Shown one piece after another: positions 1 through 28,363 of a DNA stretch of 28,363 nt (position 1 is the first letter of the stretch; each line of letters begins with the position of its first letter). The notes under the pieces are model-generated. The model was not told the DNA's origin. It searched no databases and saw nothing but the letters and a program-made list of their open reading frames with translations. The DNA comes from a virus: positions 1 through 28,363 of the IMG/VR virus record IMGVR_UViG_3300020442_000039. The stretch is one strand, 5' to 3'. Both the position numbers and the translations under genes were made by a program.

Positions 1-141
1 ATGTCATTAGAAAACCCTAGCAACAGCCAGGCTGCTCTTGTCAGTGTAGTGACAGGTGCAATGACTGGTGCCTTTGGATTATGGCTAGGGGCAGAAGGAA
101 AGCACACTATTACAGATGTCAAAACCAACACGACTAAATGA
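1..141 (+). CDS. Small membrane protein of the lysis/accessory cassette
   Basis: A 46-residue ORF opens with ATG at the first base of the window, so the true start could lie upstream and the gene may be partial. It has a polar N-terminus, one hydrophobic segment (about residues 11-30, rich in Ala, Val, Gly and Leu) and a short polar tail, as expected of a single-pass membrane protein. Its last 26 bases overlap the next gene in another frame, an arrangement common in phage lysis cassettes. I do not recognise a family. A role near the holin is suggested only by position. Confidence 0.5.
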   Translation: MSLENPSNSQAALVSVVTGAMTGAFGLWLGAEGKHTITDVKTNTTK

Positions 142-535
142 GAACTCTGAGGTTGCGCTTCCATTACGGAACATAATCACAATGGTTATCGCAGCTAGTG
201 TCGCGACCTGGGCATACTTTGGTATCGTAGAGAAACTCAATCAACATGGCACAACTCTAAAATTAATGGAGAGTGATCTAGAAAAGAATACAGAGTTTCG
301 TATCAAGTGGCCGCGTGGATCTCTTGGTTCGCTTCCCGCTGACTCTGAGCAATTCATGATGATCGAGGATATATATAAACAAGTAGATAAGATAAACAAA
401 CATATTGATAACATGGCACTCAACAAAGTTAACATTGAGTTTCTTAGAAAACAAATGGACAAAGCAATAGATGATATTGAAAAACTAAAAGATGCAAACA
501 GAGAGATAAAGTACACCAATGGGAACAGTAACTAA
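116..535 (+). CDS. Membrane-anchored coiled-coil protein, candidate inner-membrane spanin-like
   Basis: This 139-residue protein has a polar N-terminus, one membrane segment at about residues 18-36 (IITMVIAASVATWAYFGIV) and a long charged C-terminal part. That part contains the string KWPRGSLGSLPADSEQF and then helical, heptad-like sequence (about residues 80-130). An N-terminal anchor plus an extracytoplasmic coiled coil is the general architecture of Rz-type inner-membrane spanins, and the gene sits two genes before the holin. It overlaps the next gene by 17 bases, as Rz/Rz1 pairs often do. I recall similar proteins in uncultured marine phages, always unnamed. The spanin role is inference; a conserved structural or membrane protein is equally possible. 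Confidence 0.6.
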   Translation: MSKPTRLNENSEVALPLRNIITMVIAASVATWAYFGIVEKLNQHGTTLKLMESDLEKNTEFRIKWPRGSLGSLPADSEQFMMIEDIYKQVDKINKHIDNMALNKVNIEFLRKQMDKAIDDIEKLKDANREIKYTNGNSN

Positions 536-7851: not shown

Positions 7852-8826
7852 GTGGTAGCATTGAAGAAAACTAAGCTAACACCTGACCCAGTTAGAGATC
7901 CACCAAACAAGTCAGGTGGAAGTTATCAATGCCCTGGGCCTCATATGATTATGCCTGCGAGAGCCTATGGAGATGATAGGTTCAACCAATACCCTATGAC
8001 ATTCAGAGCCTTTGCTATCTGTTGTAGCCATGCAAACTCATGGACGGGTGTATTCTTCCCCAACCAACTCTACATTGCCAAGGTATTACAATGCAGCCAA
8101 CAAGCAGTATCCCAACACATGAGGAAGCTACTTGAGTATGGATACATCGAGAAATTAAGGAATGCAGATATCAGAAGGAACTACGGCAAACGTGGAGCAT
8201 TGTGGAGAGTTATCTATGACCCTACAAAGTCCTTGGATGATTGCATTGCTGGTCAACCTGCACAAGATCGTGACCCTGAGATGGAAGCGGAGATAGCCAA
8301 GCATACCCTCAATGTTGCCAAGAGTGGAGCGAGGAGAAAGAGTATAAAGGCTGTGGATAAAGATAAGGTAAACAAGGTGGGGATTGTACAAGATGTATCT
8401 AGTAAGAGTAATGGTATGGATACAAATAACAAGATGGACGTTGTACTAGATAACAAGACCCAGCTAGTAAATAACTCTATTAATTTAACTAATATAAATA
8501 CTATAGGGGAAATTAAAGAAATAGATTGTAGGAAACTATGCAACGCATATGGCGAGATACTACAAGAGCAATACAACAAACCTTGGAGTTATGACATGAG
8601 ACAGATGAGTATTGCAAAGGAGCTGCTACAATCAGGTTATACAATCCTATCATTTATAGAAGATGCTAGGAGTGTTGTGAAATGGAAGAGGGAGAAGAAC
8701 CAACAACCTCCATATTCCTTACAATACTTCATGTCTAGGAAGGTATCACAACAACAAGCTAAGAGTGGTAAGGATGTAAAGGATATCATCAAGCATATGT
8801 CAAACAAGATGAGGTTACCCAAGTGA
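7852..8826 (+). CDS. Winged-helix replication-initiator-like protein
   Basis: A 324-residue protein starting at GTG 7852 (AGGA 4 bases upstream; TTG 7861 is an alternative). Residues about 50-110 form a winged helix: QLYIAKVLQCSQQAVSQHMR is the helix-turn-helix and LLEYGYIEKL leads into the wing. A long polar, Asn/Lys-rich linker follows (about 160-225), then a helical C-terminal domain (KPWSYDMRQMSIAKELL and onwards). N-terminal HTH, low-complexity linker and C-terminal helical domain resemble lambda O and related phage initiators, which bind the origin and recruit helicase. The linker DNA holds short repeats and an AT-rich tract, as in lambda. Initiator function is inferred. Confidence 0.6.
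   Translation: MVALKKTKLTPDPVRDPPNKSGGSYQCPGPHMIMPARAYGDDRFNQYPMTFRAFAICCSHANSWTGVFFPNQLYIAKVLQCSQQAVSQHMRKLLEYGYIEKLRNADIRRNYGKRGALWRVIYDPTKSLDDCIAGQPAQDRDPEMEAEIAKHTLNVAKSGARRKSIKAVDKDKVNKVGIVQDVSSKSNGMDTNNKMDVVLDNKTQLVNNSINLTNINTIGEIKEIDCRKLCNAYGEILQEQYNKPWSYDMRQMSIAKELLQSGYTILSFIEDARSVVKWKREKNQQPPYSLQYFMSRKVSQQQAKSGKDVKDIIKHMSNKMRLPK
8384..8520. other. Candidate replication origin inside the initiator gene
   Basis: Short direct repeats cluster in the linker-coding part: TTGTAC(A/T)AGAT at 8384-8394 and 8441-8451, ATAACAAGA at 8426-8434 and 8450-8458, CTAGTAA at 8399-8405 and 8464-8470. They are followed at once by a strongly AT-rich stretch (8466-8520). Iterons next to an AT-rich tract inside the initiator gene is the lambda-origin plan. 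The repeats are short and imperfectly spaced, so this is only a candidate. Confidence 0.3.
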
Positions 8827-12540: not shown

Positions 12541-12813
12541 ATGGTTGCAAAGAGGTTTCAGAACCCCAGCGGCGGTCTTAATGAAGCTGGAAGAAAGCAT
12601 TTTAAAAAGACAGAGGGTGCTAACCTCAAGAGGCCTCAGAAGTCTGGCACTGATAGTCGCCGTGTTAGTTTTGCTGCTCGTTTTGCTGGGATGAAAGGCC
12701 CCATGAAGGATGACAAGGGGCGTCCAACTCGAAAAGCATTGGCCTTAAAAGCATGGGGGTTTGGTTCAGTAGAGGCTGCTCGTAACTTTGCTAATAGGCA
12801 TAAGAAAGCATAA
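12541..12813 (+). CDS. Small basic conserved phage protein (DUF6321-like)
   Basis: This 90-residue basic protein contains FQNPSGGLNEAGRKHF, then GANLKRPQKSGTDSRRVSF, then AARFAGMKGP...DDKGRPTRKALALKAWGF. I recall this block as a small conserved phage family (I believe DUF6321, not confirmed). It may be a minor virion or DNA-associated protein. It lies 3 bases after the Lys-rich ORF and 1 base before the portal ATG. Confidence 0.6.
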   Translation: MVAKRFQNPSGGLNEAGRKHFKKTEGANLKRPQKSGTDSRRVSFAARFAGMKGPMKDDKGRPTRKALALKAWGFGSVEAARNFANRHKKA

Positions 12814-12814
12814 T

Positions 12815-14422
12815 ATGGCAGCGTTAGATACAAAACAGTTAAAAAAAAGATATAGAGGTTGTCAAACCAGAAAAGAACAATGGAGGGCAATCTACGAAGA
12901 GGCATATGAATATTGTTTGCCTATGCGTAACCTATACGATGGTTATTATGAACAGGATACTCCTGGTCAAAATAAAATGAAACGTGTGTTTGATAGTACA
13001 GCTATTCATTCAACATCACGATTTGCAAATAGAATACAATCCGCTTTATTTCCTCCGCAACAGCAATGGTGTCGCCTGCGACCAGGTTCAGATGTTCCAC
13101 CAGAAAGAAAAGTCCAAGCACAACAAGTCTTAGATTTATATGGTCAAAAAATGTTTAGCGTTATGCGCCAATCAGGTTTTGATCTTGCTATTGGTGAATT
13201 TCTTTTAGACTTGGCCGTTGGCACTGCTGTTATGCTAATTCAAAAAGGAGATGAACTACAGCCAATTAGGTATACAGCTATTCCAATGTATCAAGTTACA
13301 TTTGATGAAGGCCCTGATGGAAAACCTAATTTTGTTTTTAGAAAATTCAAAAGACCATTTGAAGTAGTCGAACAAGAGTTTCCTGGGGTAGAGTTTCCAG
13401 AAGAGGTTTTATCTAAGTATAGAGAAAAACCTATGGAGTACATTGAACTACTTGAAGCAACGTACCCCGATAAGGAAAGTGGTAAGACCAACTATTGTCT
13501 TATGACAATGGAAGGTGATCACAAAATTTTACATAAACATCTCAAATCTTCACCTTGGGTTATCTCAAGATTTATGGTAGCACCTGGTGAGATCATGGGG
13601 AGAGGGCCTTGTTTATATGCCCTTCCTGATATTAAAACTTTAAACAAGGTTATCGAATTAAATCTGAAGAATGCTTCACTTTCTATAGGGGGTGTATTCA
13701 CTGCGGTTGATGACGGAGTGCTAAACCCTCAAGCTATTCAGATAGTGCCAGGGGCGATCATTGGTGTATCCTCTAATGGTGGCCCAAGAGGGCCTTCCCT
13801 GGCACCGCTCCCTAGATCTGGTGATACAAATCTATCGCAACTTATTGCGAATGATTTACGAATGAATATCAAAAAAACTTTGTATGATGAAAGTTTACCT
13901 CCTGATAATATGTCAGCGAGATCTGCAACTGAAATTGTAGAAAGGATGAAAGAACTCTCTCAAAACTTAGGAGCTGCGTTTGGACGATTGATTACAGAAA
14001 CAATGTACCCAATCGTCAGACGTTCTTTAGAGTTAATGGATGAAGAAGGTATGGTTGATCTACCATTGAAAGTAAATGGACTAGAAGTAACTATTGAGCC
14101 ACAATCACCATTGGCTATGGCAGCTAACATGGAGAAGGTACAGAACGTACTACAATTTATGCAGATAGCATCATCGTTCCAAGGAGGTGCAGGTCTTACA
14201 CTTGTAAACCCTGAGAAGGTTGGTGACTACATTCTAGATCATATGAATATAGATGCATCACTTAGAACAACTCCAGAAGAGAGGCAGGCAATAATTCAAC
14301 AGGCACAACAAATGCAAATGCAGATGATGCAGCAGCAAGCCGCCCAGCAAGGTCAAGAAACTCCACCTTCTGACCAAGCAGGGGCGGCACCACCACAAGA
14401 AGGTGAGGTAGCAGGTGGCTAA
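12815..14422 (+). CDS. Portal protein (T7 gp8-type head-tail connector)
   Basis: This 535-residue protein (ATG 12815; the frame is open further upstream but that part is inside the previous gene) fits the podovirus head-tail connector family in length and pattern. The N-terminus has LKKRYRGCQTRKEQWRAIY, then VFDSTAIHSTSRFANRIQSAL and FPPQQQWCRL; the core has DLAVGTAVMLIQKGDE and the C-terminal half SARSATEIVERMKELSQNLG. The tail (about residues 490-535) is Gln/Met-rich then Pro/Gln-rich. Twelve copies form the DNA channel at the capsid vertex where terminase docks. It overlaps the next gene by 8 bases. Confidence 0.9.
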   Translation: MAALDTKQLKKRYRGCQTRKEQWRAIYEEAYEYCLPMRNLYDGYYEQDTPGQNKMKRVFDSTAIHSTSRFANRIQSALFPPQQQWCRLRPGSDVPPERKVQAQQVLDLYGQKMFSVMRQSGFDLAIGEFLLDLAVGTAVMLIQKGDELQPIRYTAIPMYQVTFDEGPDGKPNFVFRKFKRPFEVVEQEFPGVEFPEEVLSKYREKPMEYIELLEATYPDKESGKTNYCLMTMEGDHKILHKHLKSSPWVISRFMVAPGEIMGRGPCLYALPDIKTLNKVIELNLKNASLSIGGVFTAVDDGVLNPQAIQIVPGAIIGVSSNGGPRGPSLAPLPRSGDTNLSQLIANDLRMNIKKTLYDESLPPDNMSARSATEIVERMKELSQNLGAAFGRLITETMYPIVRRSLELMDEEGMVDLPLKVNGLEVTIEPQSPLAMAANMEKVQNVLQFMQIASSFQGGAGLTLVNPEKVGDYILDHMNIDASLRTTPEERQAIIQQAQQMQMQMMQQQAAQQGQETPPSDQAGAAPPQEGEVAGG

Positions 14423-16907: not shown

Positions 16908-17537
16908 ATGGCAGTAGGCGATACCGATGTAACAATTTGTAACAAAGCATTATTACTATTAGGAGCAGAAGCTATTACTAGTTTTTCTGATGGTTCTCCA
17001 GCTGCACAAGCCTGCAACACTATCTACAAAGAAGTTAAGTTTTCTACATTAGGAATGTATAAGTGGTCTTTCACTATTGCAAAGACACAGCTATCAAGAG
17101 ATAGCAACACTCCACAGAATGAATGGACGTATCAATATTTATTCCCCAACGATATGCTTATTGGAGTACCTGAAGCTGTAAGAACAAGTAGTACACCAGG
17201 TGCGCCATTGTTTAAAGATTGGGAAGTAGGACAGGCTACAAGTGGTGTAGCCGTTCTTAGAACAGACGCAACAGAAGTACATATAGATTATCAAAGAGCA
17301 GTAGGTGAAGGCTCAATGCCAACTTACTTTGTTACTTTGTTAGCATATCAAATGGCTTGGCATTTAGCAGAAGTCATAACCGATCAAACAACTAAATCAG
17401 ATTATTGGAAACAAATTGCACTTGGAACTGTAGCTGAGAATTTTAGAGGAGGATACTTTAGACAAGCTGCATCTATTGACAGTGGAGGGCAGACACCATC
17501 TGTAGTGGGTGATTATCTGCTAACAGATATTAGATGA
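16908..17537 (+). CDS. Tail tubular protein A-like (T7 gp11)
   Basis: This 209-residue protein has the gp11-type pattern: TICNKALLLLGAEAITSFSDGS, then NTIYKEVKFSTLGMYKWSFTIAK, then WTYQYLFPNDMLIGVPE and the helical end (LLAYQMAWHLAEVIT). T7 gp11 forms the adaptor ring (gatekeeper) under the portal. AAGGAGG lies 6 bases before the ATG. It overlaps the next tail gene by 4 bases (ATGA), as in most podovirus tail operons. Confidence 0.85.
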   Translation: MAVGDTDVTICNKALLLLGAEAITSFSDGSPAAQACNTIYKEVKFSTLGMYKWSFTIAKTQLSRDSNTPQNEWTYQYLFPNDMLIGVPEAVRTSSTPGAPLFKDWEVGQATSGVAVLRTDATEVHIDYQRAVGEGSMPTYFVTLLAYQMAWHLAEVITDQTTKSDYWKQIALGTVAENFRGGYFRQAASIDSGGQTPSVVGDYLLTDIR

Positions 17538-19579
17538 GTAGAGTACAACAATACCAAGCATCGTTTAGTATTGGTGAGATAGATCCGCTTCTATATGGCA
17601 GACTAGATCTACAACAATATTATCAGAGTGTATCATCTGCAAAGAATGTTATCTTTGAACCTCAAGGTGGTTTTAGCAGACGCCCAGGTCTAAAGTTTCT
17701 TTTAGATTTAACACCGCATGGTGCAGCTAGTAGTCATCACCTAGTGCCGTTTGAGTTTTCATCAACACAATCTTTTATGATTGCGATGACTGCTTTTAGC
17801 AATAATACAATTCGTATGCATTTCTTTCAGCAAGGAACTTTGCTTACAAACATAAATGGTTCTGGAAATAATTATTTAGATTTCAATGTTGGTGCTATGT
17901 ACGCAACAACTAGTTTTGATTTAGCTAAATTAAGTTTTACACAATCAGCTGATACTTTGATTTGTGTTCATCCTAACTTTGTACCATTCAAAGTAGTGCG
18001 AGGAGGAACCAACACTACATGGACAGCAAATACTCTTTTAGGTGAACTAACTGTACCTAAACACGCATTTAGCCTTTCTACGTCTAATCCATCTGGAACT
18101 ATTACTCCTAGTGCAGTAGATGGCACAGTAACTATTACTGCATCAAATAGTATATTTAGTAGCAGTAACGTAGACCAGTTTATAGAAATCGATAATGGTT
18201 TTGGTAGAGCAAGAATAACTAGGTTTAATTCTGCAACAGAGGTTGAAGCAATGGTAGAGATACCATTCTTTGATACTGATGCTACAAGTAATTTTATTTT
18301 AGAAACAGGTTACGAAGATGCCTGGTCAAATAGTAGGGGTTGGCCTTTTACAGCTACCTTCCATGAAGGACGTTTATACTTTGGTGGTAGTGCATCTTTG
18401 CCTTCATCTTTGTTTGGTTCAAAGGTTGGTGACTTCTTTAACTTCAAAGCAGCTGAAGGATTAGATGATGATGCTATTAAAATCACGTTATCTACTGATA
18501 GCGTTAATACTGTTACTGGCTTACGTTCTGGTAGAGATTTACAAATCTTCACCACAGGAGCTGAGTTTTTTATTCCACAAGGTGATCTAGACCCAATCAC
18601 TCCAGCTAATGTTGTTGCTAAGTCTAGTACAAAACGTGGAGCAAAACCTTTTATTAAACCGCAAGCTGCTGAAGGTGGTACGTTATTTATACAACGATCT
18701 GGTAAAGCTATAAGAGAACTATTGTTTAGTGATGTAGAACTTTCTTATGTTGCTAACAATATATCCTTACTTGCATCTCACTTACTTGTAGATCCACAAA
18801 AGATGGCTCTACGTTCTGCAACAGATACTACAGAAGGTGATTTGTTTCTTATAGTTAATGGTGAGGACACTCTAGGTTATAGAGCAGCTAGTTTACAACA
18901 CGCTGGTCAGATAGCTGCATTCATGTTGAACAAAGGACAAAACATTGTAGCACCATCTCATTTAGTAACTGATGGTGTATTCAAAGATATAGCTGTTGAT
19001 ATTGATGACATCTACACAATCGTTAAAAGAACTATAGGAGGTGCAACTAAATATTATTTAGAAATCTTTGATGAGGATTTTACAACAGACAGCGCAGTAC
19101 AAACCTTAACAGGTTTCTCAGGTAACACTTATGGTGGTCATTCTCATTTAGATGGCAAGACTGTAAAAGTTATTCGTGATGATATCGTTGACCCTGACCA
19201 AACTGTTTCTAGCGGTAATGTTACAGCTGGTGGACAACCAACAACTTATTTAGAAGCTGGATTAGATTATGCGGTGGAGGTTGTTACTAACCCTGTAGAA
19301 CTTAGATTGCCTAGTGGTGTTGTAGCTGGACAAAGAAAAAGAATATTGGAGGTTACACCAAATATGTATTTAACACAAAACTTAGCTTTGAATGGTCATA
19401 CTCTTCCTTTGCAGACTATAGCGTTATCAGGATCAGGAGGAGTTTCAGCATTTACAGGAAAGAAAAAAACGCCTGGCTTCCTTGGATATTCTAGGGATGC
19501 GCAGATAACAATAAGCCAAACTCAACCAGTGTTCTTTACGCTATTGAGTTTAGATTACAAAGTGAGTGTAGGACAATGA
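17534..19579 (+). CDS. Tail tubular protein B-like (T7 gp12, nozzle)
   Basis: The 681-residue protein follows the gp11 homologue. Its N-terminus SFSIGEIDPLLYGRLDLQQY and NVIFEPQGGFSRRPGLKFL are the hallmark of podovirus nozzle proteins, followed by a long beta-rich body with propeller-like repeats (for example GWPFTATFHEGRLYFGGSA and LRSGRDLQIFTTGAEFFI). T7 gp12 makes the tail nozzle and holds the fibres. The length is somewhat shorter than T7 gp12 (794). It is joined to both neighbours by 4-base overlaps. Confidence 0.85.
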   Translation: MSRVQQYQASFSIGEIDPLLYGRLDLQQYYQSVSSAKNVIFEPQGGFSRRPGLKFLLDLTPHGAASSHHLVPFEFSSTQSFMIAMTAFSNNTIRMHFFQQGTLLTNINGSGNNYLDFNVGAMYATTSFDLAKLSFTQSADTLICVHPNFVPFKVVRGGTNTTWTANTLLGELTVPKHAFSLSTSNPSGTITPSAVDGTVTITASNSIFSSSNVDQFIEIDNGFGRARITRFNSATEVEAMVEIPFFDTDATSNFILETGYEDAWSNSRGWPFTATFHEGRLYFGGSASLPSSLFGSKVGDFFNFKAAEGLDDDAIKITLSTDSVNTVTGLRSGRDLQIFTTGAEFFIPQGDLDPITPANVVAKSSTKRGAKPFIKPQAAEGGTLFIQRSGKAIRELLFSDVELSYVANNISLLASHLLVDPQKMALRSATDTTEGDLFLIVNGEDTLGYRAASLQHAGQIAAFMLNKGQNIVAPSHLVTDGVFKDIAVDIDDIYTIVKRTIGGATKYYLEIFDEDFTTDSAVQTLTGFSGNTYGGHSHLDGKTVKVIRDDIVDPDQTVSSGNVTAGGQPTTYLEAGLDYAVEVVTNPVELRLPSGVVAGQRKRILEVTPNMYLTQNLALNGHTLPLQTIALSGSGGVSAFTGKKKTPGFLGYSRDAQITISQTQPVFFTLLSLDYKVSVGQ

Positions 19580-27255: not shown

Positions 27256-27312
27256 TTATGTTCTCTAATGACAAAATAGCAAATTTGGTATATACATTAA
27301 GTGAGGTATGCT

Positions 27313-28363
27313 ATGGCTACATTTGATGTTAACAGTAATACAAGGAAGGTACAGGCTACAGCTAACGGAACACAAACAGAGTTTTCCTTTAGCTTCCAGG
27401 TCAATGCTACCTCTGACATTAAAGTATTTGTAGATGGCGTACAAAAACAAGAAAGCGTAAACTACGATATTAAGAACAGCAGTAATGGTGCTGGTCTAAA
27501 TGCAGATGGTACAGGTAAAGTAGTATTTATAACACCACCTGCGGCTACCTCTACTACATATACAGTAACAGTACAAAACCCTGGTAGTGGTAATAAGTTT
27601 TACATAGGAGGGGTTCAACAACTTGCTCTCAATCTTACAGAGGGTAATACCTACATTTTTAACTATCCTTCTGCTCATCCTTTTAGATTTTCAACTACAG
27701 CAGATGGCACACATGGAGGAGGTACTGAGTACACCACTGGTGTTACTCATAACTCATCCACCCAAGTAACTATAGTCGTTCCTGTTGGTGCGCCTACTCT
27801 CTACTATTATTGTGCTAATCACTCAGGGATGGGAGGAACTGCTAACACTCCATCTGCAGGCACAGATCATAGACCAACGGCTAATCAAAGTGTTGCCATA
27901 AAATCAGAGGTTCCTAAATCAAGAACTAGTGTATACACAGCTGGTGGTAATATTACCGCAGCTTCTCTAGAAACTGACTTTGATACAATCACCATGCAAC
28001 TTGGTGACAATGCTGAAACACTAAACAGGTCTGTCAAAGCACCAGTAGGTGACCCTGATAACATTGATATGACTATGCCTACAAAGGCAAGTAGACTAGG
28101 AACTGTATTAGGTTTCAATGCTACAACAGGTAACCCTGAAGCGGGCCCTAAGATTGCAGATGTATCTACATTAGCTGCTATAACTGCAGACATAGCTACA
28201 CTCGCAGATATCGAAGATGGTACGGAAGCAACAGATGCCATTCAAGACGTAGCAGCAATAAAAAATCAAGTGCAGACTGTTGGAAGTAATGTAGCTGCAA
28301 TAACTAACGTCAACTCAAATATGGCAGCAGTTACGACTGTTAGCACTAACATCAATGATGTTA
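27313..28363 (+). CDS. Tail fibre, T7 gp17-type N-terminal domain with inserted cupredoxin-like domain (partial)
   Basis: The gene starts at ATG 27313 (GAGG 6 bases upstream) and runs off the window after 350 codons. Residues 1-90 (MATFDVNSNTRKVQATANGT...TEFSFSF...IKVFVDG) and about 190-245 (VAIKSEVPKSRTSVYTAGGN...ETDFDTITMQLGDNAETL) together match the T7 tail-fibre N-terminal domain that docks on the tail. Between them, residues about 93-180 form a cupredoxin-like domain with His122 (SAHPFRF), Cys167, His170 and Met173 (YYYCANHSGMGG). From about 280 on, a repetitive Ala/Val/Thr/Ile coiled stretch begins, as usual before fibre shafts. The receptor-binding end lies outside the window. Confidence 0.75.
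   Translation, partial: MATFDVNSNTRKVQATANGTQTEFSFSFQVNATSDIKVFVDGVQKQESVNYDIKNSSNGAGLNADGTGKVVFITPPAATSTTYTVTVQNPGSGNKFYIGGVQQLALNLTEGNTYIFNYPSAHPFRFSTTADGTHGGGTEYTTGVTHNSSTQVTIVVPVGAPTLYYYCANHSGMGGTANTPSAGTDHRPTANQSVAIKSEVPKSRTSVYTAGGNITAASLETDFDTITMQLGDNAETLNRSVKAPVGDPDNIDMTMPTKASRLGTVLGFNATTGNPEAGPKIADVSTLAAITADIATLADIEDGTEATDAIQDVAAIKNQVQTVGSNVAAITNVNSNMAAVTTVSTNINDV

Follow-up and report, generated by a model that had tools for sequence, protein, structure and literature searches.

A candidate type-1 copper (cupredoxin) module inserted in a phage tail fibre and shared among marine phage tails

Results

A tail fibre gene at the end of the window

The DNA analysed here, called the window throughout, is a virus record from IMG/VR with a length of 28363 bases. 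A tail fibre gene that resembles T7 gp17 at its N-terminus and, like the T7 gene, follows the genes for internal virion proteins runs past the end of the window (Table 1). Its reading frame is open from a GTG at 27301 or an ATG at 27313 through to the window end; the ATG is the likely start, because homologues share the N-terminal MATFDVN, and residues are numbered here with M1 at 27313. On this numbering, the four residues put forward as copper ligands in an earlier note, made from the letters of this DNA, are all present exactly where they had been placed, at His122, Cys167, His170 and Met173. The ligand motif occurs only once in the whole record.

Elsewhere in the window, next to the T7-type structural module, the minus strand between 2633 and 7108 encodes RecT-like and RecE-like proteins, a DNA methyltransferase and an invertase/integrase-like recombinase, and an O-like replication initiation protein is encoded at 7852-8826. 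The portal protein (12788-14422) is nearest to that of Methylophilales phage MEP301 (54%), well above the SAR11 phages (34% or less), and the host may thus be an OM43-type methylotroph.

Table 1. Features of the tail fibre gene and of the related nozzle gene in the window
Feature	Position	Strand	Basis or remark
Tail fibre gene, T7 gp17-like N-terminus	27313..28362	+	3' end past window edge; fold of the docking domain resembles T7 7ey9_a, 8i4m_M of cyanophage P-SCSP1u and others
Docking domain, first half (residues 1-76)	27313..27540	+	Alignment with insert-free sister fibres; fold match 6..199 split around the insert
Inserted module, predicted cupredoxin (residues 77-183)	27541..27861	+	Empty-site alignment; AF2 model of 27553-27864; Foldseek and VIA matches to cupredoxins
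His122, predicted first copper ligand, SAHPF loop	27676..27678	+	No variation among 88 aligned copies; in register with the loop His of plastocyanin 2plt
Cys167, predicted thiolate ligand	27811..27813	+	Invariant in alignment A2; aligns with plastocyanin Cys
His170, predicted second His ligand	27820..27822	+	Invariant in A2; in register with plastocyanin ligand
Met173, predicted axial ligand	27829..27831	+	Invariant in A2; in register with plastocyanin ligand
Docking domain, second half, and start of helical shaft (residues 184-246)	27862..28050	+	54/63 identical to sister fibre L260; fold match to residue ~199, helix 216-241
gp12-type tail (nozzle) protein of the same phage, without module	17534..19579	+	phrog_376; BLASTP gap at module

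The docking domain is interrupted by a clean insertion

Sister fibres that share the N-terminus but lack the module (L260-L264, and more distant ones, on other viral contigs) set the edges of an insert of 107 residues. The sisters read ...GTGKVVFITTP/TDHTPTNNQTVAVKS... where the window fibre reads ...GTGKVVFITPP/107 residues/TDHRPTANQSVAIKS..., the junction being FITTP/TDHTPTNNQ in the former and FITPP/insert/TDHRPTANQ in the latter. Two contigs (L001/L259 and L002/L265) carry the insert at the same site as the window. The insertion proposed in the earlier note, at residues about 93-180, is therefore upheld, but its extent is slightly wider (77-183) when judged from the insert-free sisters.

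Both flanks match docking-domain structures, as expected if a T7 gp17-type docking domain is interrupted: VIA comparison of the flanks gave Z 9.2 to T7 (7ey9_a), 9.7 to LME-1 and 7.9 to P-SCSP1u (8i4m_M), and structure comparison also related the non-inserted part to tail proteins of Carin 1, HRP29 and cyanophage A4. Unlike the known members of this domain (PF03906; 7ey9, P-SCSP1u 8i4m), the copy in the window is split by the insert, and its score against the Pfam T7 tail fibre family PF03906 is below threshold (11.1 bits, with a cut-off of 25.2). The model of residues 1-247 was built from 12 rows and has moderate confidence (pLDDT 70), so that it was used only to identify the two domains; its residues 79-183 match cupredoxins. 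An alignment that combined domain-only and insert-free fibres (A3) was misaligned by MAFFT and was set aside.

The insert is predicted to fold as a cupredoxin

The AF2 model of positions 27553-27864, computed without metal from 88 aligned copies, has a mean pLDDT of 97.2 and a pTM of 0.89. Its best Foldseek match in the PDB was 2dv6, a three-domain nitrite reductase from Hyphomicrobium (E 1.3e-4), followed by rusticyanins and plastocyanins. VIA-align superposed it on residues 27-136 of 2dv6 with Z 9.6 and an rmsd of 2.6 over 90 residues, and all of the VIA matches listed were copper nitrite reductases (CuNIR), rusticyanin or small laccases. With cupredoxins in the top rows of both searches, the small Greek-key barrel suspected from the sequence is borne out by the model, and the insert is predicted to be a cupredoxin-like Greek-key barrel.

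The layout of the ligands was read from the secondary structure of the model (DSSP, model numbering). The first His, His42, lies in the loop between strand 33-37 and strand 44-47; strand 83-87 ends at Cys87, and His90 and Met93 precede the last strand, 95-98. At this level, a His before a strand, a Cys at a strand end and a His and a Met before the last strand constitute the arrangement of a type-1 copper site, which speaks against a fold with the four residues far apart.

Searches of BFVD also returned three "beta-sandwich" proteins of 124-169 aa from Pithovirus and Marseillevirus metagenomic sequences (A0A481Z6J5, A0A481Z7Q7 and A0A481YVH3), which match the fold with E values of about 1e-7 to 1e-6 and are possibly free-standing cupredoxin-like proteins in giant viruses.

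Profiles of the module match blue copper proteins

A profile of the 88 rows, compared with PDB sequences, matched plastocyanin (best E 1.1e-3), copper nitrite reductase, rusticyanin, pseudoazurin, azurin and amicyanin, and in the alignments to plastocyanin the His, Cys, His and Met of the domain fall on the copper ligands. The profile search suggested in the earlier note thus found type-1 copper proteins, with the four residues in ligand positions. Taken singly, 20 of the 88 members matched Pfam Copper-bind (PF00127) and five matched the NCBIfam amicyanin family TIGR02657, both at E<=0.1; single members also matched plastocyanin, halocyanin and rusticyanin in NCBIfam, and the second copy in a tail protein of P-SSM2 exceeds the Pfam Copper-bind cut-off (23.3 vs 21.2). 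The window copy alone had no match for the domain in Pfam (PF00127 included) or NCBIfam (TIGR02657 included), and a phmmer search of the single domain against the PDB yielded chance lipocalin matches only.

The ligand loop of the window copy, CANHSGM, is of the amicyanin type, C-x2-H-x2-M, and the +3/+6 spacing of Cys, His and Met that had been likened to that of amicyanin is confirmed; the amicyanin loop, CTPHPFM, is quoted in the title of 2fta. In nearly every copy the first His is followed by Pro, where plastocyanin has Asn, so that second-shell properties may differ.

Eighteen of the 88 copies also match the Pfam family PF25489, "At5g54830-like domain" (best E 1.4e-4), and this plant domain may be kin to the copper-type domain.

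The four predicted ligands are conserved and are lost together

An HMM search of 258 loci recovered 223 distinct copies, in 218 of which the His-Cys-His-Met set is complete; the other five are truncated or degenerate, and mostly truncated at the motif. A fair test of conservation is provided by the copies found with DNA patterns that contained none of the ligands, and all four residues are kept in 55 of 55 distinct copies of this kind. The pattern used to scan GTDB contained the C, H and M, and its 84 copies were excluded from the conservation evidence as biased. In alignment A2, whose 88 rows were hand-picked from 95 diverse copies and do not include the degenerate copy L233, no well-filled column is invariant apart from those of the four ligands and Tyr165.

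Homologues lacking the four residues, which would speak against a metal site, are nearly absent, and in each of the two clear degenerate copies three or four of them are gone together, as a metal site predicts. In L233 (L233:2522-2773), the ligand positions are occupied by N, A, Q and M, and the second copy in Syn1/L171, also found in L087, has S-N-F and a replaced first His. These degenerate copies (L233 and the second copy of L087/L171) would make useful natural controls.

The module is widespread and occupies unrelated tail proteins

At least 519 viral contig stretches and 22 annotated phage records (tblastn E<=1e-3) encode the domain, numbers that lead us to reject chance occurrence, given also that no residues are better conserved than the four predicted ligands. 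The annotated carriers include the SAR11 phages HTVC028P, Baldr and Hodr and the cyanophages P-SSM2, P-SSM5, Syn1, S-RIM44, S-TIM5 and S-B68, with products named tail fibre, tail spike, virion structural protein or hypothetical. HTVC028P, L007 and L091 carry the module close to the C-terminal end of the fibre, L006 and L009 carry it in small proteins, at the N-terminus, and in L003 and L029 it lies within the gp12-type nozzle protein, whose homologue in the window lacks it; it also occurs in baseplate proteins and in cyanophage and myovirus tail proteins.

In a tree of 219 copies, the window copy groups, with weak resolution, with fibre-inserted copies and with the nozzle-inserted L004, which is consistent with movement between both proteins. 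Phage and bacterial labels change at least eight times over the same tree, a count drawn from few columns and from labels assigned by eye. The bacterial copies come from SAR86, Woeseiaceae, K189A, OM182 and Bacteroidetes, in exported proteins with a lipobox-like leader (LSACGGGG) or with cadherin/Ig-type or subtilase domains, and the exported compartment is the usual location of cupredoxins. Two Cellvibrionales proteins (L144:5851-6996 and L139:5911-6696) hold three and two tandem copies, respectively, with a leader and a hydrophobic C-terminal tail with arginines; these are bacterial surface proteins made of little else than the module.

Discussion

The module is best read as a type-1 copper (cupredoxin) domain that is mobile and is displayed on the tails of marine phages, a reading built on sequence and modelled structure. 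With the known cupredoxins (PF00127; amicyanin, rusticyanin, the CuNIR domain) it shares the fold, the strand order, the His...Cys-x2-His-x2-Met ligand set, a loop of amicyanin length and profile similarity. It differs from them in being part of a virion tail fibre instead of an exported electron carrier, in the Pro after the first His, in a single-sequence similarity that is marginal, and in that its copper binding is predicted. As a mobile beta-sandwich module scattered across unrelated virion proteins, it resembles phage Ig-like domains, which are not known to have a conserved metal site.

Phages are known to carry a free plastocyanin (petE), present in many cyanomyoviruses (PMC3037559). 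In contrast to that soluble electron carrier, the module is a domain of structural tail proteins and is also found in phages of the non-photosynthetic SAR11. Metal in tail fibres has been described as iron in HxH motifs, at the gp37 tip of T4 and in Alteromonas phage R22Y, where it gave rise to the Trojan Horse idea (PMC11705849). Those fibres and the one described here would both be metal-binding tail fibres of marine phages, but the HxH fibres hold iron by paired His between chains, without a cupredoxin fold or Cys and Met ligands. A literature search that covered few subscription papers yielded no description of a cupredoxin or type-1 copper domain that serves as a mobile component of virion tails. 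Some cyanophage tail proteins may already be annotated as Copper-bind in databases (cf. P-SSM2).

We consider it probable that the insert is a cupredoxin module with a working type-1 (blue) copper site formed by His122, Cys167, His170 and Met173 and, from knowledge of the family, highly probable that it binds copper, one ion per module. On this reading the module is mobile: it has entered the docking domain of the fibre at a surface loop and, elsewhere in marine phages, proteins of the nozzle, the fibre end and the baseplate. The N-terminus of the fibre has no export signal, which makes copper loading in the cytosol unlikely; the fibre would be made and assembled in this compartment, which has little free copper, its barrel already folded yet empty, and would pick up copper at lysis or in seawater. 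We give such loading after lysis an even chance. Once metallated, the rigid domain would act as a contact module for host partners in the envelope or periplasm, much like the Ig-like domains of other phages, and its binding surface would be held in place by the metal. This host-contact function is the likeliest single role, held tentatively and at somewhat under even odds; the position of the module in the window phage, at the fibre base and not at the tip, counts against it.

Two rival accounts give the metal no active part. In one, the motif is a disulfide or part of the hydrophobic core of an Ig-like or other beta-sandwich, with no metal; however, only one Cys is conserved, leaving no second for a disulfide, the two His and the Met are invariant and are lost with it, and the profile matches are almost all blue copper proteins with the ligands in register. 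Beta-sandwiches do share arrangements and a few non-cupredoxin rows occurred in the fold searches, but we regard this account as very improbable. A metal that only stabilises the domain, copper or zinc holding together a small, stable barrel that resists proteases and serves to stiffen tail parts or keep them apart, with no redox or receptor function, is a rather unlikely but substantial alternative. The many unrelated positions of the module (fibre base, C-terminus, nozzle, baseplate) are those of a generic decoration, and close sister fibres manage without it. Yet a generic spacer would not need the four ligands, which are kept across copies down to ~28-40% identity, metal-free Ig-like domains serve as spacers in other phages, and the retention of copper-type rather than plain barrels would be left unexplained.

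Two further accounts give the metal an active part. At the host envelope, the domain might be reduced or take up copper, which would alter it or its contacts and so aid fibre reorientation or DNA ejection. T7-type fibres hinge at the fibre-tail junction, and the module sits in parts of this junction both here, in the fibre docking domain, and in the gp12-type nozzle of L003 and L029; but other sites of the module, at fibre C-termini and in tail proteins of myoviruses, are remote from the hinge, and cupredoxins change little between redox states, so we judge such a redox- or copper-sensing trigger improbable. It seems still less probable that phage-borne copper is recognised by host copper uptake systems or delivered through them, since the module lies at the fibre base in the window phage and we know of no host copper receptor that binds cupredoxins in these hosts, even though the cupredoxin site, by family knowledge, is specific for copper and of high affinity. 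In favour of such a copper Trojan horse, the concept has been proposed for iron in marine phages with HxH tail fibres (PMC11705849).

The prediction of a copper-loaded cupredoxin module, which we prefer, is directly testable in cultured carriers (HTVC028P, Baldr, P-SSM2, S-TIM5 and Syn1). If copper is bound, several abundant groups of marine phages, those of SAR11 and the cyanophages among them, would have tails that are copper proteins, and virion biology would gain a new metal together with a known redox cofactor. Copper binding would also hint at steps of marine infection that depend on copper, and virus particles would become candidates for a class of copper ligands in seawater. The widest form of this proposal, in which marine phages as a group carry tail copper in a type-1 module that is loaded after lysis and aids attachment or triggers infection, with virions acting as seawater copper ligands and infection depending on copper, is one that we put forward as an unlikely possibility.
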